Shown one piece after another: positions 1,080-14,879 of a stretch of DNA of 23,652 nucleotides. The DNA is from Caldisericota bacterium (GTDB lineage Bacteria; Caldisericota; JANLFM01): positions 1-23,652 of the forward strand of contig JANLFM010000021.1 of the NCBI GenBank assembly GCA_024655865.1, in the 5' to 3' direction. Made by a program: the position numbers and the translations under genes. How positions within the stretch are numbered: the stretch's first letter is position 1; each line of letters starts with the position of its first letter. Under the pieces are notes generated by a model. It ran no database searches and was not told the DNA's origin. It saw only the letters and a list, made by a program, of their open reading frames with translations.

Positions 1080-4000
1080 TTATGCTTCCTTTACCCACTC
1101 CTCTGAGAGCACCTCCGCTTGTTCCAGAACGGTCTTGGTGGCCTTCTCCTGCTTATCCGGGGGGTAGCCATACTTGCGCAGGACCCGCTTAACGGCCACC
1201 CGCAATTGCGCCCGCACGCTCTCCCGCAAGGTCCAGTCTATAGTCACATTTTTCCGCACGGCGTTTACAAGCTCTTGAGCGATAGTGCGTAATTTCTCAT
1301 CTCCCAGTACTTTCACAGCAGAGTCATTGGTCTCCAAAGCATCGTAGAAGGCTAACTCTTCTTCCGTTAATCCGAGCTCCTTTCCCCGTAAGTCCGTGCT
1401 CCTTAGTTCCTTTGCCATTTCGATCAATTCTTCAATAACCTTGACGGCTTCTATGGCCCGGTTTTGGTATCGGCGAATGGTTCTCTCTAACATCTCTGAG
1501 AAGGATCGCGCCCTCACGATGTTTTTTCTCCTTAAGGTCTTGATCTCCCCTTCGAGCAATTTTCGAAGGAGTTCCACTGCCAGGTGCTTTTGAGGCATGT
1601 TGCTTACCTCATGTAGGAATTCATCGGAGAGGATAGAAATATCAGGTTTCTTTAGACCCGCAGCGGCAAAGAGGTCAATTACTCCTTCGGGGGCGATGGC
1701 TCGAGAAATGATCTGGCGGATAGCATGGTCTAATTCATCCTCACTCTTAGCTTCGGCTGGGGCCCTCTTCACCAGGATAGAACGCAGTGCTTGGAAAAAA
1801 GCCAGGTCATCGCGGATGTGCAAGGCCTTTTCATGGGGAACCGCCAGGGCGAAAGCCTGAGAAAGTTCCTGCACTGCTTTCAGGAAACGATCCTTTCCAT
1901 CCGGTTGAGCCAAAATGTGCTCTTGAGCCGCAGGCAAAATAGAGAGGCGCTCTTGCGGTGTGCCCGCAATCCAGCGGGACCAGTCAAAACCATGGAGAAG
2001 CCCGCAACAAATTTCGTATTTCTCCATCATCACTGCTACTGCTTTCTCCTGGTCAATGACTGCATCCCCGGTGCCCCCACTTTCCGTGTATGTATGAATA
2101 GCCTCTTTCAATTCCCGGGCCAGGCCCAGGTAATCCACGATGAGCCCTCCTGGTTTATCGCGGTAGACCCTATTCACCCGGGCGATAGCCTGCATTAACC
2201 CGTGACCGCGCATGGGTTTGTCAAGATACATGGTGTGGAGGGAGGGAGCATCAAATCCGGTAAGCCACATATCACGGACGATCACCACCTTGAAAGGATC
2301 GTCCGGATCCCGGAAGCGATCCGCTAATTTCTCTCGCCGCAGCTTGTTGCGGATGTGACACTGCCACTCCGGGGGGTCTGAAGCGGATCCAGTCATCACT
2401 ACTTTGATAATCCCTTTATCGTCATCCTCATGATGCCATTCCGGGCGTAGTCGCACGATCTCATTATAAAGATCAACGCAAATGCGCCTGCTCATGCAGA
2501 CGATCATGGCCTTGCCATCCATAGCCTCGAGGCGTTTCTCAAAATGCTCCACGATATCCTGGGCAATGAGTCGAAGTCGCTTCTCTGCTCCCACCACAGC
2601 TTCGAGCTGAGCCCACTTAGTCTTAAGCTTTTCCTTGCGCTCGACCTCTTCGCCCTCGGTGACTTCCTCAAAATCAGGATCAATTTTGGGCCTTTCCTCT
2701 TCATTTAAGGCCAGCTTTGCCAGCCTGCTCTCGTAATAGATGGGTACAGTGGCCTTGTCCTCTATGGAACGCTTGATATCGTAGATGCTGATGTAATCTC
2801 CAAATACCGCTCGGGTGTTCCGGTCCGTGAGTTCAATTGGGGTTCCAGTAAAGCCAATGAAGGAAGCGTTGGGGAGGGCATCTCGTATGTGGCGAGCGAA
2901 GCCGTCAATGAAGTCGTATTGGCTGCGGTGCGCCTCATCGGCAATGACTACTATGTTCCGCCGATCTGAGAGCAGAGGATAACGATCCCCCTTTTCCTCA
3001 GGTAGAAACTTTTGGATCGTGGTGAAAATAATGCCACCCGAGGCCCTCCTTAACTTTTGCTTTAAATCCTCACAGCTTTCAGCTTGAACCGGTGGTTGCC
3101 GCAGGAGTTCCTGACAGCGCGAGAAAGTGCCAAAAAGTTGGTCGTCCAGGTCGTTGCGGTCAGTAATGACGACGATAGTGGGATTCTCCATGGCGGGCTC
3201 GCGGATGATCCGCCCGGAATAGAAGACCATGGTCAAGCTCTTCCCGGACCCCTGGGTGTGCCAGACTACACCGATGCGCCGGTCTCCAAAGACCTGGTTG
3301 CGATTGCTCGTAGCCTCCTCTCTATGAAAAGCGGGGGAAACCGCGCCTTCCCTTTGAAGTCTCGCCGCCCGCAGTGTTTCCTCCACGGCTACTTTTACCG
3401 CATGGAACTGATGATAACCAGCAACGAGCTTGGAAGGGGTTCCCTTATTATCTTCAAAGACAATGAAGTCCCTAATTAACTCCAGAAAGTGGCGCCTATC
3501 AAAAACCCCTTCCAAAAGGACCTGCAATTCGGGCATGGATGAGTGCGCAAGCTCCTTTCCAGAGACTGTACGCCATGGCTTGAACCACTCCCAGCCCGCA
3601 GTGATGGTGCCCATGCGAGCTTCCACCCCATCTGAGACTACAAGCAATTCATTGAAAGAGAAAAGGTTTAAAAGCTCGGATTTATATGTCTGAAGGTGCT
3701 TAAAAGCTGTATAAGCAGTGGCATTCTCCTCGGCGGGATTCTTGAATTCCATAATTACTAAAGGCAGCCCATTGACAAAGATTAAAAGGTCAGGTCGGCG
3801 ATTATTCTTGTTTCCCACTACAGTGAACTGATTGACGGCCAACCAATCGTTGTTCTCTGGGTTCTCGAAGCCAAACACCTGCACTTGTGCTCCGGCAATG
3901 GAACCGTCTGGCCGACGGTATTCTACGTTTACCCCATCAACTACCATTTTATGAAAAGCCCGATTGCGCATGATTAAATTGGCCCCTTCCGGGCGAGTAA

Positions 4001-4220
4001 GCTTGCGGAACCCATCCTCGATGGCCTCATGTGGAAGGTCAGGATTTAAGCGATACAGTGCTTGGCGCAGGCGGTCTTCCAGTATGACCTGGCTGTAATC
4101 CTGCCGCTCGGCCCCGGGTTCTCTTGGGGCGATCTCCGGGCCGTGCTTGATTGTGTAGCCCAGGCTTTCCAGCCAGGCGAGGGCCGCAGATTCAACTTCG
4201 GATTCGGTGAAGTTATACAT
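1080..4220 (-). CDS. hsdR: Type I restriction enzyme R subunit (HsdR)
   Basis: A 1046-residue HsdR: the ATP-dependent translocase and endonuclease of the HsdR2M2S complex, which cuts DNA lacking the host methyl mark. The N-terminal nuclease has D144 in RRPDLLIF followed by E158-F-K160, the PD-(D/E)XK pattern. A GYHQFHAV segment (268-275) precedes the SF2 motor: Walker A HTQGSGKS (321-328), DEAH box (428-431), TGTP (458-461), WLTGFDAP (652-659) and QAIARVNR (677-684). The C-terminal third is the helical region that docks on the methylase. All motifs and the full length are present, with no frameshift. The gene starts seven bases after the stop of the DUF4209-like gene. Here hsdR lies at the far end of the operon, separated from hsdS by four unrelated genes. 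Confidence 0.97.
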
Positions 4221-4227
4221 GGTCGGG

Positions 4228-5937
4228 TTACCCTTTCGACTCTTTTTTCTCGGTTTGTAGCAATGTAAGATGACAAGCTAAATGGATAAGCAATGTTGAG
4301 TCTTCTTTAGTTGTCTTTTGCAGTAAACCATGACAGATACGATTACGTAAGTTTACGCTAATGGGATTAACCAGCAAATTGTAAAAATATCGACGCCAGG
4401 ACTCATCTATCCTTCCCTTTAACTGCGCAAGTAATTTTCCTAATTGCACAACTCCTCCAGGGGTAGCCCCGACTGGCTCGTGAATTATCGCCAAGCCCAA
4501 AATTCTGGCTATATTACGAAAGACGGCCTCAATTCTGGGAACTAACAAATGCGCTGCAACATCATACTCACCCTTGAAGTACCAATTCACCCCTTGGGCG
4601 ATATTCTCTGCAATCTCAGGAGGTATTAGTTCAGTCGTAAAGAATTGGCTCAAATTTTCAACCTCTGGCATTCCATGCTTGTTAACTATTCTTTGAAGTA
4701 TATCTGTCGCCAGGTTGCCGAAAATTCTAATCCCCAAGGTTTCTTGTCTGACTACCTCTATTTCTATATTTTCTTCATAATCCCTACCAATGAAAATGGG
4801 AGCGTTGCTTTCATCAAGAACAAAGTTTGTCATTAGAAACTTGAGGGGGGACCGCTGTTTTACTTCTTCAAGGTTTTGCTCGTAATCACCACTTGGGGGA
4901 CCGTAGAAACCAAAACGTGTCAAAGACTCTGGCCAACCTTTTGCATCAACAAACCAATTCAAAAAATTTTCCACTTTTTCTTTTGGGATTTTTACCTCGG
5001 CGGTAATGGCCGACAGTCCAAGTTCTTCCTCAGGGATTGCTTGGATTTTTAGAAGTATCTCTTCAGCTATTTCTTTAAATCCAAAATTCCGAGCGAGTTC
5101 TAGAGCATGTTGCAAATGAGCCAAATATACTAAGCCCTGGCCTTCCCCTCTGCTTCTTTCGGCCTCTTCCAACCATCTATTAATCTGTTCTTTCCTCAGT
5201 TCATTTTTCCTACAGGGATCAGCAAGCTTAATCATTAATTCAAGGACGCTCTCAACTGTTGAAACGTCGCTTGAATAGACTTCCCTTGCTGATTTTAATA
5301 ATTCATGCACATCTTCCGGAATCTCCTCGGGTGGCAGGTCCATCAGAGCTTCAATAAGCCTCAATGAAATGTCTGAACGCCTTTCTGTCAAACTCAATTC
5401 TTGCTTAGCTTCGTTTATGATCAACTCAATGACTTTGTTTTTTCTTTCCTCATTTTTAACCTCTCTTGCGAGCTCTAAGGCTCTGATTAGACCAAGAGCC
5501 CGCTCTATTTCGTCCCATTGTCCTTTCGGGACCTGCATGTAGGCCTCGATGGCCACCTTGGCAAATAAATCCGGCCTCTGCCCCCATTTCCGAACCCATA
5601 ATAAATCTGCCAAACGAGAGCGAACCACTGGATGTTTACTAAGGTTAAGAATTTCCGCCCAGGTACTCAAGCTTTCTTCTGAAATTTTCGTCAATGGTGG
5701 AGGGAAAACGCCACTAACTGTTTCAATTAAGGGTGCAAAAGGGCCATAACGCCCTCGATACTCATCATTTGATTTTTCGACGTACATATATTCAAAAGCA
5801 TATACAAATATCCACAATGGATAGTCAGTGTTTTTTAAATCCTGCTTTCGCAAAAATGTCCCTATAGCATGCCAATGATTTGCATTTTTAGCTGCTTCTT
5901 CAAGTAAGTCTGCAATTTCGCTCTTGTCCATTTGCAT
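4228..5937 (-). CDS. DUF4209-like protein with RNxxxHG motif
   Basis: A 569-residue, soluble, mostly helical protein with no signal peptide or clear membrane segment. The strongest mark is RNRICHG at residues 531-537, in a helix-rich C-terminal domain. This is the RNxxxHG signature I associate with the DUF4209 family. It also fits the R-x4-6-H motif of HEPN ribonucleases, so an RNA-cutting, abortive-infection-type role is possible but unproven. Residues 1-110 (rich in W, Y and F) and a charged helical middle look like a separate N-terminal module. The gene is co-directional with hsdR, whose ATG follows its stop by seven bases, so the two are probably made together. Upstream GGAG lies 11 bases before the ATG; a second ATG at codon 3 is possible. 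Family call moderate, function unknown. Confidence 0.6.
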
Positions 5938-6048
5938 TTTTATTTGCGCTCCAACCTATGGCTCCAGAACTTCTCTTGATAAACTCTGCAATAATTTTTT
6001 GACTTTGTCATAGCAAAAAACCAAAGGGCTTCTAATAAGTACCAATTC

Positions 6049-7830
6049 TTACGCCAAGGACTCAAAACCTCGGCGGATTATTGAGGCCATCCTCCTCCGC
6101 CGTTCAGCCAAAAAGACTTCATATGGCATGTCCTCCCACCCTTCTGGCAAGGCATGTAGCTCATGCATCAACTTCCAATCAGACTCCTTAAATCGCTGGC
6201 GAATCTTCGGTACGTACTCAAAAGGAGGTGAATCGCCAATGTCCAAGTTATCCGGCCATTCTAACAGTGCGTAGTTTGCCTGCTGGTTGATGAGGGTCAT
6301 ATCCGTGATACCTTGGCTTTCCAGCCACCCTCTGGGAAACAGATGATGACGCTCCAAGGGTTTCTTCTTGGGTTTGATAGTGGGATCTAAAAGATCGGAA
6401 ACGCGCTTATGAGAGAATAGTACTGGGGTTCCTAATAGAACCTGGGCAGCAATGTAAGCGAATAATCCAGGGTTACGCGCAGAGGACGTTTCCAGGGCGG
6501 CAGGTAGAGTGATATTCCAGTAGTCGTTTGTTAGCTCGTTTGCCATAAGTTCATTTAAGACGGTTACAAACCTCTCGGAATTTGCGACCCCTCTTAAACG
6601 ATTAAGATCGCTGTCCATCACGGATTCTGGCGATGACGTGTAACGTCCCGTTAAGCTACTGAAAAAGAACCAGCGGCCAATTAGGTGTTGGAGCAGGTAC
6701 TCTGGCACACTAAAATGGTCCCGGCCAATTAAATAAAAAGCGTATGCGTATAGTAGGGCATTTTGGGAGGAGATGAGTTCCGAGCTGCGGAAACCGGCCC
6801 CATTGATAGCGCTGAGAAACTGGTGCCAGCGCGTGAGATCAAGCACCAAAGATTGGGCCTTCTTCAGGATTCCAAATTGCTCTTCTCGCCTTTCTGGAGA
6901 AATCTCACCAGTATCTATGTCTTTGCCACGAAGCACATTGTAAACTGCCTTGAGCGATCCTCGACGAAATCCAACAGCTACAGAGACCCTAAGCAATTGA
7001 TCGGGGTCAGGAAAAATCAGGTGATTAAAGGGGGAAGGGTGGCCGCCTAGTTTAAAAGGTTGACGTGACTCCCGGCAAAATCGTTCAAGCTCGGCCCGGC
7101 CATCGTCCCAGAAAACTGACATCAGGGTAAGGATAAAGTCTGCCTGATTTAACTTCACTCCTTCACTATTAATTCGGACGAAGATGGTCGCCACTTCTTC
7201 CTCATCAACAGTTGGAGCGATTTCAAGAGCGGTAAAAGGATATTTTTGAAGATCAAATAACCTATCAAGATTGCTACTGATGCGCTCTTCCTCTTCTGGA
7301 GAAATTGGCCCTTTAGCCTTCTGAAGCGATTGCAGAAAGTCTTTAATGATTAAGTAACTCGATTTCCCAGAGGCCCATAGCTTAGAAATGTTAGGAATCC
7401 ATTCGGGATCCTTTCTGATAGCAGCATCGCAAACCTCGAACTTGCCATCTCTGGGACGAAAAGCGATTTCAATTTCGCGCTCACAATAGTTATTATCAAG
7501 CACCTTTCGCCCTCTGAAAACTGCATATAGGGAAGTCAAGCGTTGTTGGCCATCAACAATTAGCCGTAAAGGAACAGAGTGCGCCTTTGTATCCAGGCCT
7601 ATCTGTTTGACCCCATTTACCTGACCGTTTTCCCAAAACAAAAGGTAACCCACCGGAAAACCATGGTACATGGAGTCGAAAAGGTCGCGCACTTTTGTGT
7701 TGGACCACACGAATGGCCTTTGAATATCTGGCAGGCCGATGTCTCCGATATCAATGTAATGAAGGAGGGACGACAGCTCGTAATCAACTCGTTTAAAACA
7801 GGTCTTTAAATTGTTTAGGTCCTCTAACAT
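6049..7830 (-). CDS. DUF262-HNH protein (GmrSD-like type IV restriction candidate)
   Basis: A 593-residue protein. The N-terminal DUF262 (ParB/GmrS-like) domain shows PDIQRPFVW (34-42) and the hallmark DGQQRLTSL (93-101). The C-terminal domain carries an HNH-type nuclease core: ERHHLFPRGWL with H495-H496, then N515 and N519 in an INQQAN segment. Fused DUF262 plus an HNH/DUF1524-like domain is the layout of GmrSD-type, nucleotide-dependent enzymes that restrict glucosylated or otherwise modified phage DNA. That would complement the type I system, which targets unmodified DNA. A clear ribosome binding site (AAAGGAG, 9 bases before the ATG) fixes the start. A 183-bp gap upstream holds small hairpins (7940-7957; 7973-7980 with its complement near 8000) and a 111-bp AT-rich gap follows. 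The exact substrate cannot be read from the sequence. Confidence 0.85.
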   Translation of the reverse strand: MLEDLNNLKTCFKRVDYELSSLLHYIDIGDIGLPDIQRPFVWSNTKVRDLFDSMYHGFPVGYLLFWENGQVNGVKQIGLDTKAHSVPLRLIVDGQQRLTSLYAVFRGRKVLDNNYCEREIEIAFRPRDGKFEVCDAAIRKDPEWIPNISKLWASGKSSYLIIKDFLQSLQKAKGPISPEEEERISSNLDRLFDLQKYPFTALEIAPTVDEEEVATIFVRINSEGVKLNQADFILTLMSVFWDDGRAELERFCRESRQPFKLGGHPSPFNHLIFPDPDQLLRVSVAVGFRRGSLKAVYNVLRGKDIDTGEISPERREEQFGILKKAQSLVLDLTRWHQFLSAINGAGFRSSELISSQNALLYAYAFYLIGRDHFSVPEYLLQHLIGRWFFFSSLTGRYTSSPESVMDSDLNRLRGVANSERFVTVLNELMANELTNDYWNITLPAALETSSARNPGLFAYIAAQVLLGTPVLFSHKRVSDLLDPTIKPKKKPLERHHLFPRGWLESQGITDMTLINQQANYALLEWPDNLDIGDSPPFEYVPKIRQRFKESDWKLMHELHALPEGWEDMPYEVFLAERRRRMASIIRRGFESLA

Positions 7831-8013
7831 TTTCTAAGCTCCTTTGAAAGAATTCTGCATCTTCTATATGGATTTCAACCTTTAGTAGCCTCGGGGTAGT
7901 GAACCGTCCATCACGCTTTCCCCCAAAACCCTAAACTTTCCTGGCGTTCCAGCCAGGGGATTCAAGCCAGGACAGCGTGGCCTCATCAACCTTTGACCCT
8001 GTCCACGCTGGCA

Positions 8014-8499
8014 TTAGCTGTACACTCCCAAAATCGCTAAAACAGCGTACATTGCCATGAAAATCAGCGGCACCCAGCCTTCAAGATGTGAAAGTGGGCG
8101 GTAAGCCTTGCCCTGTCCCCTTTCAGCAAGGTGCCACTCGTACTCGTAGATCGCCGCAGGCAGATACTTCTCAAGCTCGTGAATCACTTGAAACTTGATG
8201 GTATTCAAATTCCGGTACGAATGGATTAACCACCACCACACAAAACTGGCCAGGATTCCTGCAACCGGAACTGCAACGTGCCATACTGTAGATGAAGCGT
8301 GCTGCGAGGTCAGACCGTACAGGATAACGAGAGCAGTGTTCACCGTCAGAAGGTAGTTGTTCGCGGCAGTCCTTCGCTCGCTGACCTTATCAGCCGAGTC
8401 CACATATATCTTATACTGCTCAAATAACACCGCCTGCCACGACTCGCCGTAGGTTTCCTTGGTCTGCCGTATCAAGGAACTAGCGCCTTCTCTGGACAT
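8014..8499 (-). CDS. Small three-helix membrane protein paired with TIR gene
   Basis: A 161-residue protein with a charged helical N-terminus (1-45), predicted transmembrane helices at about 46-64, 72-93 and 142-160, and a charged segment between TM2 and TM3 containing SYRNLN and HELEKYLPA. The layout recalls SLATT-type and other small membrane effectors that are triggered by nucleotide signals, but I cannot assign it to a named family with confidence. It starts three bases after the stop of the TIR-like gene, and its ribosome binding site (GAGGT) overlaps that stop, so the two form a tight pair. The likely reading is that the TIR protein makes or senses a signal and this protein disrupts the membrane. 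That is inference from arrangement and topology. Confidence 0.6.
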   Translation of the reverse strand: MSREGASSLIRQTKETYGESWQAVLFEQYKIYVDSADKVSERRTAANNYLLTVNTALVILYGLTSQHASSTVWHVAVPVAGILASFVWWWLIHSYRNLNTIKFQVIHELEKYLPAAIYEYEWHLAERGQGKAYRPLSHLEGWVPLIFMAMYAVLAILGVYS

Positions 8500-8502
8500 T
8501 GC

Positions 8503-8892
8503 TTACCTCGCCCCACCAATCAGGGCCTTCAAGTTGTCCCACGTCCACTGGTAAATCTTGTCACTTGGCAGAGCGGATGCTGGCTTTGTGCACTTCTTAT
8601 CGCTGCGACCCCAGAGTAAGAAGTATGGCTTGCCTTCCTCCTGCGAAATCTTTAGCTCCTCTGCAACGCCTGTTGCAGTGTAAGTCCACTCCCCGCAGAT
8701 AACGATAGTCAGATCCGTGCGTCGGATGCGTTCTCGCACCCGCTCTTTCCAGTTTCCAGTCATCGGCTCCTTGACTGACCAGTCCTGAATACTGAAGGGC
8801 GAGTCTGGGTTCTTGGCCTGACCAACGAGAAGATTGCGCAGATCTTTATCGTGGTCAAAGTCAAAACTGATAAAAGCACGCTTAGTTGCCAT
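8503..8892 (-). CDS. ThsB-like TIR domain protein (MTH538/DUF1863 type)
   Basis: A 129-residue single-domain protein. The first strand reads KRAFISFDFDHD (4-15), followed by SPFSIQDWSVKE (31-42), a strand TIVICG (62-67), and the helix TATGVAEELKISQEEGKP (72-89) whose E78/E79 sit where TIR enzymes carry their catalytic glutamate. This is the pattern of the MTH538 TIR-like family, which includes ThsB of Thoeris, where the TIR domain converts NAD+ to a signal after phage sensing. No ThsA (SIR2-SLOG or Macro effector) is nearby; the only tight partner is the membrane protein that follows. A strong AAAGGAGG lies just before the ATG, and the gene starts 33 bases after hsdS. Confidence 0.8.
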   Translation of the reverse strand: MATKRAFISFDFDHDKDLRNLLVGQAKNPDSPFSIQDWSVKEPMTGNWKERVRERIRRTDLTIVICGEWTYTATGVAEELKISQEEGKPYFLLWGRSDKKCTKPASALPSDKIYQWTWDNLKALIGGAR

Positions 8893-8925: not shown

Positions 8926-10211
<1,286 letters not shown>

Positions 10212-10215
<4 letters not shown>

Positions 10216-10682
10216 AGGCAGCCACCCTTTCGGACGAGTTGCTGCAATGCAGGACTTGTGCCGGTGACAAGTGTTCCGCATTGCGTTCGGGCATAGGCGC
10301 AACGTACCTTACTCCAGGGTACTAAATTCTGATCTAAGCTGAAGATCTTTGAATAAGCAGCTCGTGACTCCAAGCGCATAGGCAGCGATCCATTGGGCTC
10401 GAGTCCAGGTACTGGTGAGATAGTTGCTTTTCTTCCATCGGCTAATTGGAAACCGATGTCTTCAATAACAACCGGGAACTCGCTCAAGTTAACTACCTCT
10501 ATGCTAAAATTCAAGGGCATGCTTCTATTTAACATAAGAATGGTGTGTTGTGGAGTTACTTTCAGTCGCACTTTGTTCCGTGTCAACTGATGCCAAATAT
10601 TAATTACACCAAGTATAGTCCCCGCAACACCGCAAACAGCACCAACAATAGCGGTAATAAGCGTTACTGTTTCACTTGCCAT
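10212..10682 (-). CDS. Membrane-anchored small beta-rich protein 2
   Basis: A 156-residue protein starting at the ATG in the GGGGCATGGC tail motif (a TTG five codons earlier is open but lies within the repeat). Residues about 5-30 form one hydrophobic helix (ITAIVGAVCGVAGTILGV), followed by a strand-rich domain with NKVRLKV, LNFSIEVVNLSEFPVVI and DIGFQL, suggesting an immunoglobulin-like fold anchored to the membrane. No catalytic motif is seen. It has the same plan as the protein encoded at 10790-11257, with little sequence identity. Its ribosome binding site and start come from an hsdM-tail copy (10678-10704). Its TGA overlaps the hsdS ATG, so it links the accessory cassettes to hsdS translation. 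Function unknown. Confidence 0.6.
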
Positions 10683-10776
10683 GCCCCAACTCCTCAAACT
10701 TTCTCGAGTTGACCCTTTTGAGAGTTACTCTTTCAACGCTGTACTTGGCTTTCAGCTGGAAGTGGTCACTTCTCAC
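10672..10776 (-). CDS. 34-codon mini-ORF ending FEELGHGK
   Basis: A GTG start at 10776 is preceded by a perfect AGGAGG with a seven-base spacer, placed directly after the TGA of the previous gene (10790). The 34-residue product is basic in its first two thirds and ends RKFEELGHGK, a variant of the hsdM C-terminus RNLEELGYG. Its last 11 bases overlap the ATG of the next gene at 10682, the same geometry as the mini-ORF at 11936-12043. It may act only as a translational coupler. The excellent ribosome binding site argues that it is translated. The upstream part does not clearly match HsdM. Confidence 0.45.
   Translation of the reverse strand: MRSDHFQLKAKYSVERVTLKRVNSRKFEELGHGK
10678..10704 (-). 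repeat. hsdM 3'-tail copy 4
   Basis: Minus-strand AGAAAGTTTGAGGAGTTGGG and the following GCATGGC match the native hsdM tail (13299-13325) at 22 of 27 positions without gaps. In one frame it reads RKFEELGHG; in the next frame it supplies GAGGAG, a seven-base spacer and the ATG of the membrane protein gene. Confidence 0.65.
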
Positions 10777-10789
10777 CCCTACACCTCCT

Positions 10790-11257
10790 TCATAATGTGA
10801 GAGTGCCATGGTAGACGTGGCCCTTACCTGAGTCATCATCCCAAAAAACCTCAATTTCAAAAGGAGGTGTGCATCCGAGCGAAAGGGCCAAGAGGCAACT
10901 AACTTCACCATTAGGTCCAATTAATGTTGGCATCTCATCTCCCTTTACAGCTGCATGATGGTCTTTTAATGGGACTCCATCCAGTTTTACCTGGACATTC
11001 CGCGCTTCTGCTTTACCAGAATTTACTAAGTAGAGGCGATAGGAGCCTTTATCTGTTTTTCTCAGCTCTGGATGTAGGAAAGCTTGTCTGGAGCTTAATA
11101 TCTTTTCTTTTTCCCGCTTCTCTTCAATTTCAGCTATCTTTTTTTGGGCAGCGGCGGCTTCACGTTGAGCTTTCCAACTTCCCCACATAGCAACCCCTGA
11201 CACAATCAGGGAAAGCCCACCTATAATAACACCTGCCCATGAGAGAAAATCAGCCAT
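10790..11257 (-). CDS. Membrane-anchored small beta-rich protein 1
   Basis: A 155-residue protein with one hydrophobic helix at about 6-27, a charged coiled-coil at 30-58 (REAAAAQKKIAEIEEKREKE), and a C-terminal strand-rich domain containing YRLYLVNSGKAEARNVQVKL and FEIEVFWDDD. No enzymatic motif is seen. Helix plus beta-sandwich suggests a membrane-tethered adaptor or receptor-like partner of the neighbouring nuclease candidate. The start is the ATG in the TTATGGC of an hsdM-tail copy, with AAGGAG seven bases before it. The gene downstream on the mRNA has the same plan, so the two may be anciently related or work as a pair. No named family was recognised. Confidence 0.6.
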   Translation of the reverse strand: MADFLSWAGVIIGGLSLIVSGVAMWGSWKAQREAAAAQKKIAEIEEKREKEKILSSRQAFLHPELRKTDKGSYRLYLVNSGKAEARNVQVKLDGVPLKDHHAAVKGDEMPTLIGPNGEVSCLLALSLGCTPPFEIEVFWDDDSGKGHVYHGTLTL

Positions 11258-11348
11258 AACCCAACTCCTTCAGATTCCTATTGATCTTCACTGCGATTAC
11301 CTGTTCTAGGTAGTCCAAAAGCTTTTCTAACCTCCTCCTCAAACTCAT
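11250..11348 (-). CDS. 32-codon mini-ORF ending NLKELGYG, overlapping the nuclease gene
   Basis: Begins ATG-AGT at 11348 and lies mostly inside the 3' end of the nuclease-like gene in another frame (overlap 71 bases), ending TGA at 11250 beyond that gene's stop. The product is a leucine/lysine-rich amphipathic helix (LEKLLDYLEQVIAVKINR) ending RNLKELGYG, very like an HsdM C-terminus. GGAG lies five bases upstream of the ATG after GC. Its end overlaps the ATG of the next gene (11257) by eight bases, as hsdM itself overlaps the frame starting at 13303. It could be coincidental as a protein, but the tail motif and the position repeat the pattern of the other mini-ORFs. Confidence 0.35.
   Translation of the reverse strand: MSLRRRLEKLLDYLEQVIAVKINRNLKELGYG
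11253..11279 (-). repeat. hsdM 3'-tail copy 3
   Basis: Minus-strand AGGAATCTGAAGGAGTTGGG then TTATGGC matches the native tail at 22 of 27 positions, ungapped. Its first bases share the TAG stop of the nuclease-like gene, so the copy fits exactly between that gene and the next. It provides AAGGAG plus a seven-base spacer and the ATG. Confidence 0.65.
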
Positions 11349-11946
11349 CCTCGCTCCCGCAACGGTCAAAAAGATACCTTAGTTTCCGTCCATCCCTTGG
11401 CCAATTTGCTACTGATGATTTTTGGCGGGGGTAATCACTAAATCTTTTATAAATGAATTGAATTACATCACTAAATAATATTTGGCGAACACCTTCAATA
11501 GGCAGCTTCCCTTTCTGATTCCCAAAGGCCAGAAGCCTACAGGTTATATTATCGTTCTGAAATCGCCCCTTCTGATAGAGAGCAATGGCCGCATCCTCCA
11601 TTTCGCGCTCTTCAAAACAGCCGATTGCCCGAAGGATGCGATGCATGTTCTCGTCGCTGGGATTTGTCCAGGGACCGTTGAGTGCACATTGTCCTCGTTT
11701 CACTTCCGCAATAATCACATTGCAAAAGGTGGAGCAATCACTTACTCGAGGGTCATCTTCCATGGAATTTATTAGCAACTCCCGGCGATGCTTGAAGCGA
11801 ACACCCAGGAAATCCGCATCGGTTCGCTGTAGATGGCCTTGGTCAGGATGTATGATAAAATTCTCCAGGATCAAGAAACCGTTTAACCTTAAGTACCAAT
11901 AAACCAGCCTCTCAGGTATAAAAGGCCAAATAGCATTATTTACCAT
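11278..11946 (-). CDS. Putative PD-(D/E)XK nuclease-like protein
   Basis: A 222-residue protein that I do not recognise by family. Residues 13-35 form a helix and strand (LVYWYLRLNGFLILENF), then TDADFLGVRF (42-51) is followed by NVIIAEVKRG (76-85), giving D43/D45, E81 and K83. That spacing of an acidic strand and an E-x-K strand after an N-terminal helix is typical of restriction-endonuclease folds. The C-terminus is helical and acidic. The start chosen is the ATG at 11946 within GGTATGG of an hsdM-tail copy, with GAGG eight bases upstream; a TTG five codons earlier belongs to the repeat. It is distinctly AT-richer than fic, its upstream neighbour, so it was probably acquired separately. It may work with the membrane proteins that follow. 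Confidence 0.55.
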   Translation of the reverse strand: MVNNAIWPFIPERLVYWYLRLNGFLILENFIIHPDQGHLQRTDADFLGVRFKHRRELLINSMEDDPRVSDCSTFCNVIIAEVKRGQCALNGPWTNPSDENMHRILRAIGCFEEREMEDAAIALYQKGRFQNDNITCRLLAFGNQKGKLPIEGVRQILFSDVIQFIYKRFSDYPRQKSSVANWPRDGRKLRYLFDRCGSEDEFEEEVRKAFGLPRTGNRSEDQ

Positions 11947-12043
11947 ACCCCAATTCCTCAAGATTTCTCCAAATAGCTTCTTCCAGTCTCTGCGCCTCAG
12001 CTTGCTGCTCGCGCAGTTGCGAGGTGAATTTGTTTTGCCTCAT
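11936..12043 (-). CDS. 35-codon mini-ORF, truncated copy of the HsdM C-terminus
   Basis: Starts ATG at 12043, overlapping the TGA of fic (ATGA), with AGGAG eight bases upstream. Eight new residues are followed by [17 protein letters not shown] and [11 protein letters not shown]. Over the last 26 comparable residues 21 match the true HsdM C-terminus. The stop lies 11 bases inside the next gene (ATG at 11946). This is a real, in-frame, well-initiated remnant of a methylase gene and probably couples fic translation to the nuclease gene. Whether the peptide does anything, for instance by competing for the HsdM tail site, is unknown. Confidence 0.55.
   Translation of the reverse strand: MRQNKFTSQLREQQAEAQRLEEAIWRNLEELGYGK
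11942..12021 (-). repeat. hsdM 3'-tail copy 2 (long)
   Basis: Aligns without gaps to the true hsdM end at 13299-13378 (constant offset of 1357 bases). The distal 28 bases (11994-12021 against 13351-13378) are identical, the middle is diverged at DNA level but conserved in protein, and the last 27 bases match at 22 positions. This is too long to be chance and shows a duplicated or imported methylase 3' end. Confidence 0.9.
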
Positions 12044-13218
12044 GCGCCTTTCTCCTCCGGCTCTTCAAACAGTCGCAGATACGGGTCGAAACGAAAGCGC
12101 CGGTTACGGGTGTAGCCGGTGATCTCACGCAGAAGACCCACGTCCACGAGCCGGTTGACCAGTTGGTTAGCGCCCGCGGGAGTGACGTTTAGCCACTTGC
12201 GCACGTTTGCCACGGTGACGATGGGGTGGTTGAAGAGCTTCTCCATCACGCGGTGTCCGTTGCCGGCGGCTCGTCCGAGTTTCTCAGTGATCCGGCTACG
12301 GTAGTCCTCGCGCATGCGCAGAATGGCAGCGGCAGTCTGGGTCGCTTCGGCGGCAACCTCGGCCACGCCGCGCAGGAAAAAGCCGAGCCAGCCCTCCCAG
12401 TCGCCTTCGTCGCGCACAGCCTGGAGACGCTCATAGTATTCGGCACGGTGGCGCTTGAAGTAGTGCGACAGGTATAGCACCGGACGCGCAAGTCGTTTCT
12501 TCTCGGTGAGCAGGAACGTGATGAGCAGCCGCCCGATGCGGCCGTTACCATCGAGGAAGGGGTGGATGGTCTCGAACTGGGCGTGGACAAGCCCGACCTG
12601 GACGAGCACCGGCAGGGGGCTTTCCGAGTGCAGGAAATTTTCAAGATCTGATAGCGCTTGGGGCACTTCGTGCGGTGGTGGCGGCACGAAGGTCGCTTCA
12701 CGCAAAGTGCAGCCAGGCGGGCCGATCCAGTTTTGCGAAGTTCGCAATTCGCCGGGCGTAAGCTTTCCCCCGCGCACGCCCTCCATCAGTACCGCATGAA
12801 TCTCGCGAATCAGGCGCACGGACACGGGCAACTCGGCCAGACGGTTCAGGCCGTGGTTCATGGCCTTGACGTAGTTAACCACTTCGGCGACGTCGCTGGG
12901 GGCGTCCGGGTCGAACAGTTGTGCCTCAGCGGCCAATAGGTTTTGAAGGGAACTTTGGGTGCCTTCAATTTGGCTGGATAGTACAGCTTCCTTGCGCACG
13001 TACATGAACACAAAGAGATCAGGATTCGGCAGGGTGAGAACCGCCCCATCCAGCCGGCCCAAGGCGTAGTCGGCCTGGGAAAGCAGGTCACGGAGTTCGC
13101 CCTCGAGCCGCACGGGCGGATGGGGCGGCAGGGGTGCCGGCACGAAAGCCCGATAGCCGGTGGGTTGCTGAACGTAACGTCCAGCCCGGAATTGCTTACT
13201 TTCCTCTGCGTTAACCAT
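12040..13218 (-). CDS. Fic family protein with winged-helix C-terminus
   Basis: A 392-residue Fic enzyme. The catalytic loop HPFLDGNGRIGR (219-230) matches the HxFx(D/E)GNGRxxR consensus completely, predicting AMP or other nucleotidyl transfer onto a target protein. An N-terminal SSQIEG (81-86) fits the (S/T)xxxE(G/N) inhibitory helix, so activity is probably self-restrained (class II type). The N-terminal half is the Fic_N-type domain. The last ~90 residues look like a winged helix (VTVANVRKWLNVTPAGANQLVNR cut here for length: VTVANVRKWLNV, then TPAGANQLVNRLV), suggesting DNA or operator binding. It is much more GC-rich than the genes on both sides. The start ATG overlaps the stop of a 30-codon leader ORF. 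Confidence 0.9.
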   Translation of the reverse strand: MVNAEESKQFRAGRYVQQPTGYRAFVPAPLPPHPPVRLEGELRDLLSQADYALGRLDGAVLTLPNPDLFVFMYVRKEAVLSSQIEGTQSSLQNLLAAEAQLFDPDAPSDVAEVVNYVKAMNHGLNRLAELPVSVRLIREIHAVLMEGVRGGKLTPGELRTSQNWIGPPGCTLREATFVPPPPHEVPQALSDLENFLHSESPLPVLVQVGLVHAQFETIHPFLDGNGRIGRLLITFLLTEKKRLARPVLYLSHYFKRHRAEYYERLQAVRDEGDWEGWLGFFLRGVAEVAAEATQTAAAILRMREDYRSRITEKLGRAAGNGHRVMEKLFNHPIVTVANVRKWLNVTPAGANQLVNRLVDVGLLREITGYTRNRRFRFDPYLRLFEEPEEKGA

Positions 13219-13303
13219 GGACGGGATTTGCCTGTATAGTAAACGCTGCGTTTAACATAGTATCAATGATACCTCTATATTCAACGGACACAATATCAGC
13301 CAT
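13211..13303 (-). CDS. 30-codon leader ORF bridging hsdM and fic
   Basis: The ATG at 13303 lies inside the last codons of hsdM (TATGGC), with GGAGGAG seven bases upstream, so ribosomes finishing hsdM can restart here. The 30-residue product begins [11 protein letters not shown] and ends NPVHG; its TAA at 13211 lies just past the fic ATG (13218-13216). It resembles no known protein. It is either a translation relay or the remnant of a gene replaced by fic. Confidence 0.35.
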
Positions 13304-14879
13304 ACCCCAGCTCCTCCAGGTTTCTTGCAATGGCGGCGTCGAGCTTCGCAGCCTCAGCTTGCTGCTCGCGCAGTTGCGCCACCAGACGGGCCATTTTTTG
13401 GTCAAATTCCTCGTCCTCATCTTCCAGCACCTCGGCTCCCACGTAGCGCCCCGGCGTGAGCACGTATCCTTGCTGGCGTATCTCCTCCAGCGTGGCGCTC
13501 TTACAGAAACCGGGGATGTCATGGTACTCGCCTGCGTCCTTCTCTCCGCGCCAGGCATGATAGGTGCCAGCAATCTTTTTTATATCCTCATCCGTTAATT
13601 CCCGATGTACCCGGTCCACCATGCGCCCCATCTTACGGGCATCGATAAAGAGGACTTCTCCTCGCCGGTCCCGGAAGCGGTTGTTTTTCTTATCTCGAGC
13701 CAGGAACCAGAGGCAGGCAGGAATCTGTGTGGAGTAAAAAAGTTGACCCGGGAGCGCCACCATGCAGTCCACAAGGTCTGCCTCGATAATGTTCTTGCGG
13801 ATTTCCCCTTCGCCTGAGGTATTGGAGGACATGGAACCATTAGCGAGCACGAAACCAGCTACCCCAGTTGGCGCCAGGTGGTAAATCATATGCTGCACCC
13901 AGGCGAAGTTGGCGTTATTTGCAGGAGGAATCCCATATTTCCATCTTTTATCCTCCCTGAGCAATTCTCCTCCCCAATCTTTGAGGTTAAAGGGCGGATT
14001 GGCTAAAATGAAGTCCGCCTTAAGGTCGGGGTGGAGGTCATTATGAAAGCTATCCCCGCACTCGATTTTGCCCTCAATTCCTCTTATGGCAAGGTTCATC
14101 CGGGCCAGTCTCCAGGTTGTAAAATTGGATTCCTGGCCGTAAATACTGATCGCTGATTTGGCTCTTCCGCCATTACCATTTCCGGTAGAATGTGCCTCGA
14201 GAAATTTCACCGACTGCACGAACATACCTCCTGAACCACAGCAAGGGTCATAAACTCGCCCCTTATACGGCTCAAGCATCTCTACGAGGAGCTGCACAAT
14301 ACAGCGGGGAGTGTAGAACTCTCCTCCTTTTTTCCCCTCAGCGCTGGCAAACTGGCCAAGAAAATACTCATACACCCTTCCCAGGACGTCCTTGGATCGA
14401 TTTTCGCTTTCTCCCAAGCCAATTGCGCTGATGAGGTCGATCAGCCTACCCAAGCGCTGCTTGTCCAGGTTGGGCCGGGCATAGTCTTTGGGCAAGACCC
14501 CCTTAAGGGATGGGTTATCCCTTTCCACTGCTTCCATGGCCTTGTCCACGATCTCCCCGATGGAAGGTTGCTTGGCATTATCCCTGATGTTTTTCCACCG
14601 AGCCTCAGCTGGGACCCAGAACACATTTACGGCTCTGTATTCGTCCGGATCTTCCGGATCAGCTCCTTGATCCTGCTCCGCAATAAGCCGGGCCCGCTGT
14701 TCTTCGAAAGCGTCAGAAATGAATTTGAGGAAAATCAATCCCAGGACCACGTGTTTGTATTCCGCAGCGTCCATGGTTCCTCGAAGGGTGTTAGCAGTCT
14801 GCCAGAGTTGAGCTTCAAAACCCAAATTTGCGCCAGTCCGATTAGAAGTTTCCACTTTCTTCTTGGATAGCCTGGCCAT
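13296..14879 (-). CDS. hsdM: Type I restriction-modification DNA methyltransferase subunit (HsdM)
   Basis: A 527-residue N6-adenine methyltransferase. The N-terminal HsdM_N helical domain (25-180, including [20 protein letters not shown]) is followed by GGEFYTPR (185-192), the AdoMet-binding DPCCGSGG (211-218) and catalytic NPPF (294-297). The C-terminus carries a coiled segment [16 protein letters not shown] and ends RNLEELGYG. With HsdS it methylates the target site, and with HsdR it forms the restriction complex. It is the first gene of the operon, with AGGGGG upstream of the ATG and a good promoter 40-70 bases away. Its last 27 bases (13299-13325) double as the ribosome binding site and start of the following frame, and are the parent of three tail copies downstream. 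Confidence 0.97.

Follow-up and report, generated by a model that had tools for sequence, protein, structure and literature searches.

The type I restriction-modification operon of a Caldisericota bacterium contains copies of the 3' end of hsdM, the methyltransferase gene, placed before genes that stand between hsdM and the specificity gene hsdS. The operon lies on the minus strand of a DNA stretch of 23,652 nucleotides (contig JANLFM010000021.1 of assembly GCA_024655865.1, positions 1 to 23,652), referred to as the window, and its order is hsdM, fic, tail copy 2, g2, tail copy 3, g3, tail copy 4, g4 and hsdS, a tail being the end of hsdM or a copy of it. In many bacterial and archaeal restriction operons, accessory genes are joined through such copied ends of core genes, and most of them are toxin-antitoxin or defence-like. 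The copied hsdM ends probably serve as portable operon junctions composed of a stop, a Shine-Dalgarno (SD) sequence and a start, which suggests how restriction operons take up genes without losing translation.

Copies of the hsdM end in the window

The hsdM gene (13296..14879, minus strand) encodes a type I methyltransferase subunit of 527 residues (Pfam N6_Mtase 1e-110, HsdM_N 3e-29; PADLOC MTase_I), and its final 36 codons (13299..13406, minus strand), delimited by sequence and by a profile of the tail, are the source of the tail. Near the end of this tail stand GGAGGAG (13311-13317) and, at 13301-13303, the next ATG; the open reading frame (ORF) that follows is overlapped by the hsdM stop. 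Three 27-base copies of hsdM 13299-13325 had been reported in a first-pass annotation made by eye from the sequence, and they were confirmed at 11942-11968, 11253-11279 and 10678-10704 on the minus strand, each matching at 22 of 27 positions with the ATG at an identical offset. No other 27-mer on either strand of the window matches at more than 18 of 27. Under a simple composition model that grants the SD GGAG and the ATG free, the probability of at least 22 matches is about 2.5e-6 per site. As a background, 3,263 ATG sites away from profile-detected tails were scored in 184 loci, and 14 reached 18/27; these include window copy 4, which was not detected by the tail profile because it is too short, and most of the 12 listed mark the start of hsdS where genes are interposed. 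The annotation had held that equally similar gene ends in random operons would point to convergence. For copies 3 and 4 taken alone, this would have needed 22/27 matches at a comparable rate in random operons, and such a rate was not seen here.

A search of the whole 1.8-Mb genome with the HsdM C-terminus profile (E<=1) recovered, besides hsdM itself, only copy 2 (E 2.6e-14) and copy 3 (E 0.02). Copy 2 is a mini-ORF of 35 residues (11936..12043, minus strand) that aligns with the hsdM end across 88 bases (12021-11934), 28 of them consecutive and identical, and it is matched independently by an HsdM protein query. Its start ATG overlaps the fic stop (ATGA), while its own end overlaps the start of g2, with the stop just past the g2 ATG. 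Unlike copy 2, copy 3 (11253..11279, minus strand; RNLKELGYG), found by sequence and profile, and copy 4 (10678..10704, minus strand; RKFEELGHG), found by sequence, are short; both look like old remnants, and copy 2 looks younger. The starts of g2 (11944-11946), g3 (11255-11257) and g4 (10680-10682) lie within copies 2, 3 and 4, and "tail + gene" is a fair term for the arrangement. The fic gene is found behind an 80-base leader and does not use the hsdM-tail ATG.

An old overlap between hsdM and hsdS

In relatives whose HsdM is 68-80% identical, hsdM ends with LDAAIAANLKELGYGG before the stop and hsdS starts inside that end; the DNA GGAGCTGGGGTATGGCGGGTGAGTGG encodes ELGYGG and a stop in the hsdM frame and MAGEW in that of hsdS. 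The overlap, present in loci where both genes are adjacent, is therefore old. The EcoKI genes likewise overlap in different frames at the end of hsdM and the start of hsdS, and translational coupling was proposed (Roberts et al. 2012, PMC3510504). In copies that end in ELGY[GDE], the ATG of the next gene keeps the same position, whether before hsdS, MNT, Fic, DUF1016, g2 or g3.

Tail copies in other genomes

With the profile, which covers 37 residues at the HsdM C-terminus, about 1,240 genomes from four phyla were screened, 54 of them belonging to the phylum of the window, and a further 38 genomes were added through hsdM relatives; 100 regions were retrieved. Genome sampling was uneven, gene calls were simple longest-ORF calls, and most loci came from metagenome assemblies, with L150, L151, L159, L163, L180 and L212 on contigs of 1 to 5.8 Mb. 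The profile, biased toward in-frame, conserved copies, recovered hsdM ends and isolated tails and little else above threshold. Isolated tails were found in Acidobacteriota, Chloroflexota, Pseudomonadota and the window's own phylum. In a set partly chosen for isolated tails, a second tail was absent from all 49 loci where hsdM and hsdS are adjacent and present in 22 of the 86 that have genes in between; among loci selected by HsdM similarity alone, the counts were 0/26 and 7/41, respectively. Different genes thus stand behind hsdM-tail copies in different genomes, and sites without an inserted gene have a single tail, as the first-pass annotation had predicted.

Arrays were seen elsewhere: five tails within 3.5 kb in L171, three in L163, and two flanking fic in L183, from the window's phylum. 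The interposed genes include Fic, MNT-HEPN (NTP_transf_2 with HepT), the YhcG/DUF1016 nuclease, Schlafen AlbA_2, ORF6N and DUF433-DUF5615. Copies range from about 7 to more than 60 codons, and old tails before hsdS have shrunk towards SD and ATG (KELGYG-like remnants), many of them to 5-12 codons. Remnants of hsdM were found, for example in L157, where an N-terminal motif is fused to the tail; tails fused to an accessory ORF occur in L019 and L165. A search of plasmids with the tail peptide gave no match, perhaps owing to the short, low-complexity query.

Several loci show further arrangements. A common short peptide (..ARxVHFA..), perhaps from a small gene fused to the tail, lies upstream of tails in L015, L151, L152 and L180. 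Units of tail and MNT-HEPN occur without an intact hsdM in reach in L165, L172, L176 and L181; L165 and L172 have 2.6 kb of common upstream DNA without an hsdM match, and hsdS and hsdR fragments follow the unit in L181. Behind hsdM of L167, from +1 to +470, four tail repeats are spaced about 128 bases apart with up to 97% identity and no intervening genes; here the tail by itself was recently duplicated in tandem.

Presence and absence between related loci

Comparison of related loci shows insertions together with their tails. L163 and L212 have in common a 92% identical block that begins 75 bases ahead of the hsdM stop in L212, extends across MNT-HEPN and reaches into hsdS; in L163, it is preceded by another hsdM (81%) along with an AlbA gene, a tail and fic. 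L150 has hsdM-AlbA and tail-MNT-HEPN as in L163, and the fic unit is absent. Upstream of an insert of DUF433 and truncated DUF5615, L165 and L172 share 95% identity, and downstream of it 92%; the insert brings a second tail, into which the truncated DUF5615 toxin reads in frame. The difference between L170 and L217 is MNT-HEPN-tail. In L176 and L181, 73 bases of tail and HEPN-MNT are held in common between dissimilar flanks.

Ends of hsdS are copied as well

Copies of the HsdS C-terminus behind hsdS were meant as a negative control, and they were found. The HsdS tail ends with LLPKLISGELRVRDAERFLKERGL before the stop, and its DNA, GAAGGAGCGGGGGCTATGA, provides the following gene with SD and ATG; copies of it precede further inserted genes in L163, L212, L189 and L197, with several in L197. 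The annotation had described copies of the hsdM 3' end, but hsdM is not special. With this positive control, the idea of a phenomenon confined to hsdM was rejected, and the duplication rule concerns overlapping gene ends rather than hsdM as such. Duplicated HsdS ends between hsdS and hsdR were seen in L010 and L008 in addition to the four loci above, and in that interval of L163 and L212 an IS200-like Y1 transposase gene lies behind a copied HsdS tail.

Relay reading frames

The tail had been regarded as a ribosome site and start for the next gene. SD and ATG are indeed present, but the tail is usually also a short relay ORF started by an upstream NTGA. An upstream gene was called for 24 copies, and it ends in NTGA in 23 of them; in 16 of the 24, the NTG overlapping the upstream stop is in the tail frame, which stays open to the tail end (about 18% expected, p ~2e-7), and among the NTGA-ending upstream genes the tail frame is correct in 17/23 (p 8e-5), both p-values assuming independent loci, which is not fully true. 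In the window, the stop/start overlap with an SD inside the upstream coding region is found at the hsdM tail and its next ATG, the ATGA overlap at fic and its relay, and copy 2 obeys the rule. Copy 4 ends a possible 34-codon relay ORF (10672-10776), recognised by eye, which could be read from a GTG behind AAGGAGGT. From their reading frames, most tails look like translated relay mini-ORFs. The low pN/pS (nonsynonymous to synonymous ratio) of the copies gives no independent support for translation, because the profile selects for it.

Source and boundaries of the copies

Copies were ranked against their own and foreign hsdM by local alignment, since hsdM ends differ in length. Eight of 22 were closest to their own hsdM, and for 11 of 22 at least five foreign hsdM were closer, so exchange between loci contributes. 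The copying of an hsdM tail that had been read in the window is real, but the source is not simply the local tail, and an origin of the copies from the local tail only was rejected by this ranking.

Three mosaic copies from unrelated hosts are near-identical to their own hsdM as far as the R-E-Q-Q codons or slightly beyond and diverge from there on, with identities before and after the switch of 95% and 59% in L044, 93% and 70% in L159, and 100% and 65% in window copy 2; the mosaic p-values refer to the best split, its choice uncorrected. Many copies whose upstream part is not from hsdM also begin at these codons, and copy boundaries, variable as they are, recur there. The mosaics and the recurrent boundaries fit recombination between hsdM ends through a conserved block. 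Boundaries or switch points at R-E-Q-Q (GCGAGCAGCAGGC) were located in L044, L159 and the window (11994-12021 and 13351-13378), as well as in L006, L015, L150, L163 and L181.

No recombinase or other machinery for cassette mobility was found among the window genes (Pfam, PADLOC) or the Pfam-named interposed families, the IS200-like Y1 gene being seen only in the hsdS-hsdR intervals of L163 and L212. No integrase-like Pfam match occurred among the genes scanned, with no dedicated intI or attC search run.

Proposed mechanism and alternatives

The proposed mechanism starts from the last codons of this HsdM family (..LKELGYGG and stop), which in a second frame supply SD and ATG for the gene that follows, with the hsdM stop overlapping that start. 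An insertion must leave intact both the C-terminal codons of hsdM and the SD and ATG of the next gene, so the overlap is needed twice, and each insertion therefore would leave a core gene with its tail, an accessory gene, a second tail and the next gene. Repeated insertions would build arrays such as that of the window. Ribosomes finishing the accessory gene would restart on the NTG overlapping its stop, translate the tail in the old frame and stop across the next ATG. Tails may arise and be exchanged by recombination between own or foreign hsdM 3' ends, often near the R-E-Q-Q codons. The duplicated tail would be retained because the start of the next gene lies inside it; selection would maintain SD, spacer and ATG, and the relay frame would maintain coupling. 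Aging tails would decay upstream of the SD until the part from SD to ATG alone stays conserved.

Several results weigh against this mechanism. In the sample not selected for tails, 34 of 41 interposed loci have no profile-detectable tail, so that genes also enter tail-free or tails disappear, and the mechanism is one common route rather than a rule. The relay rule is broken by several copies, including window copy 3, which lacks a relay because g2 ends inside it with TAG. Furthermore, some junctions share ancestry (AlbA and MNT units), which lowers the count of independent events.

A possible but clearly less probable account is that the copies are scars of hsdM turnover, each being what remains of the end of an earlier hsdM after an incoming block of hsdM' and accessory gene had replaced the body of that gene; the array would then record successive replacements, with the newest adjoining hsdM. 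The L163/L212 block that begins just before an hsdM stop and lies behind another hsdM, the 11 copies nearer to foreign hsdM, and hsdM remnants such as that of L157 agree with it. The eight copies closest to their own hsdM do not, and the near-identical tandem tails of L167 and the long near-identical 5' part of the L044 copy are local duplications or conversions. Turnover would be one concrete history within the junction mechanism and does not contradict it. Insertion of single genes by a trans-acting recombinase, with the hsdM 3' end as an attachment site restored on integration, is improbable. The restored gene end, the second copy on the far side and the recurrence of boundaries and mosaic switch points at R-E-Q-Q in unrelated hosts agree with it, but the inserts have no recombinase gene, the tails are strongly diverged and of widely differing length, and hsdS ends behave alike despite their unrelated sequence.

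Convergence, in which separate genes arrived at the same efficient ribosome site (GGAGGAG, spacer and ATG) and the peptides are alike only as a consequence, is very unlikely. Conservation does peak exactly from SD to ATG, and the very short tails before hsdS are indistinguishable from convergence; as the whole explanation it was rejected by copies extending 20-36 or more codons upstream of the SD and by the low ATG-site background, and the genome-wide uniqueness of the copies and the lack of second tails in all 49 adjacent loci also speak against it. Equally doubtful is a function of the tail peptide, alone or fused, in docking on HsdS to tether an accessory protein or regulate assembly: the EcoKI HsdM C-terminus adjoins the HsdS N-terminus (PMC3510504) and fused tails exist in L019 and L165, but most tails are separate short ORFs, many of them tiny before hsdS, and HsdS tails are copied as well. 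Returning to portable junctions, a broader form can be put forward tentatively, in which overlapping hsdM and hsdS ends are interchangeable modules recombining at a preferred point (R-E-Q-Q for hsdM), and toxin-antitoxin and defence genes are traded across phyla as units of gene and relay ORF, that is, as recombinase-free cassettes with built-in translational coupling.

Other genes of the window

Homologues of hsdM, hsdS and hsdR lie in a single operon in the window, as in a type I restriction-modification system, and the non-hsd genes between hsdM and hsdS are fic, g2, g3 and g4. The ATG of the hsdM tail opens a 30-codon orphan ORF (13211..13303, minus strand, from sequence), probably a relic of a former next gene or of the leader. 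The fic gene (12040..13218, minus strand; 392 residues; Pfam Fic_N and Fic; PADLOC SoFic 3e-124), the first interposed gene, encodes a member of the SoFic-like AMPylator family. Its leader of about 80 bases (13219..13295, minus strand), aligned with related leaders before fic in L016, L006 and L163, has the palindrome TAAACGCAGCGTTTA at 13240-13254 adjoining a TATAAT-like box and is probably a promoter/operator of its own. A second Fic type has a different inverted repeat in its leader (TTTAATA..TTATTAAA), and such repeats before fic genes are probably autoregulatory operators.

The uncharacterised g2 (11278..11946, minus strand; 222 residues) had no match in Pfam, PADLOC or PHROG, and a search across the window's own phylum recovered the window copy alone; its one homologue (37% identity) is plasmid-borne and located outside any recognisable type I locus. 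A D..ExK-like motif spotted by eye suggests a PD-(D/E)XK nuclease. The products of g3 (10790..11257, minus strand; 155 residues; PHROG 6723, unknown function, 5e-10) and g4 (10212..10682, minus strand; 156 residues; PHROG 4989, unknown function, 1e-5) both have a hydrophobic N-terminal segment, and the g4 N-terminus, MASE, is similar to an hsdS start. For g2-g4, too few relatives exist to build an alignment. The gene hsdS (8926..10215, minus strand; 429 residues; Pfam Methylase_S; PADLOC Specificity_I), encoding the specificity subunit, has no tail in front and starts via an ATGA overlap with the g4 stop. Behind it, further candidate defence genes form a second block (4228-8892), which has no tail copies and comprises TIR-like, 8xMP membrane, GmrSD-like (PADLOC HEC-05) and DUF7380 (PDC-S39) genes, followed by hsdR and one final gene; hsdR (1080..4220, minus strand; 1046 residues), the end of the operon core genes, itself served as the HsdR reference, to which 94 downstream ORFs of other loci gave matches.

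Significance and comparison with known systems

The junctions bear on a question in defence-gene acquisition, namely how a gene can be inserted between tightly coupled genes while translation is preserved. They leave a readable mark from which one can reconstruct where inserted genes came from and in what order, and searching for tail copies offers a way to detect embedded toxin-antitoxin and defence genes missed by annotation. The relay ORF in addition gives a specific prediction for reporter tests. Duplicated gene ends acting as junctions were not described in the literature searched, which covered few subscription papers or bioRxiv, and priority is uncertain.

Genomic islands that integrate at gene 3' ends, such as tRNA genes or rlmH in the case of SCCmec, restore the target end, leave a second copy on the far side and may form tandem arrays. 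Here, in contrast, no integrase was seen, the inserts comprise one or two genes, the boundaries vary, and the diverged tails hold the next start. Integron cassettes likewise form arrays of single-gene units separated by a repeated element; the repeat here is a coding gene end with SD and ATG rather than attC, the units are translationally linked, and again no integrase was seen.

The embedding of defence genes and the coupling of hsdM and hsdS are already known. Defence genes embedded in type I operons are described for TgvAB of Vibrio cholerae in the available part of that account (PMC11411939) and, as cited there, in a preprint by Payne et al. To that extent the two cases are alike, with foreign defence genes (candidates in the window) between hsd genes of one operon; the same part of the account describes no duplicated core-gene end and does not address entry without breaking translation. 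Copying of HsdM-tail DNA into hsdS was proposed to have given rise to type IB systems (Roberts et al. 2012, PMC3510504). In that case the tail copy becomes part of HsdS, whereas here it is a free-standing junction before inserted genes, and it occurs in arrays.

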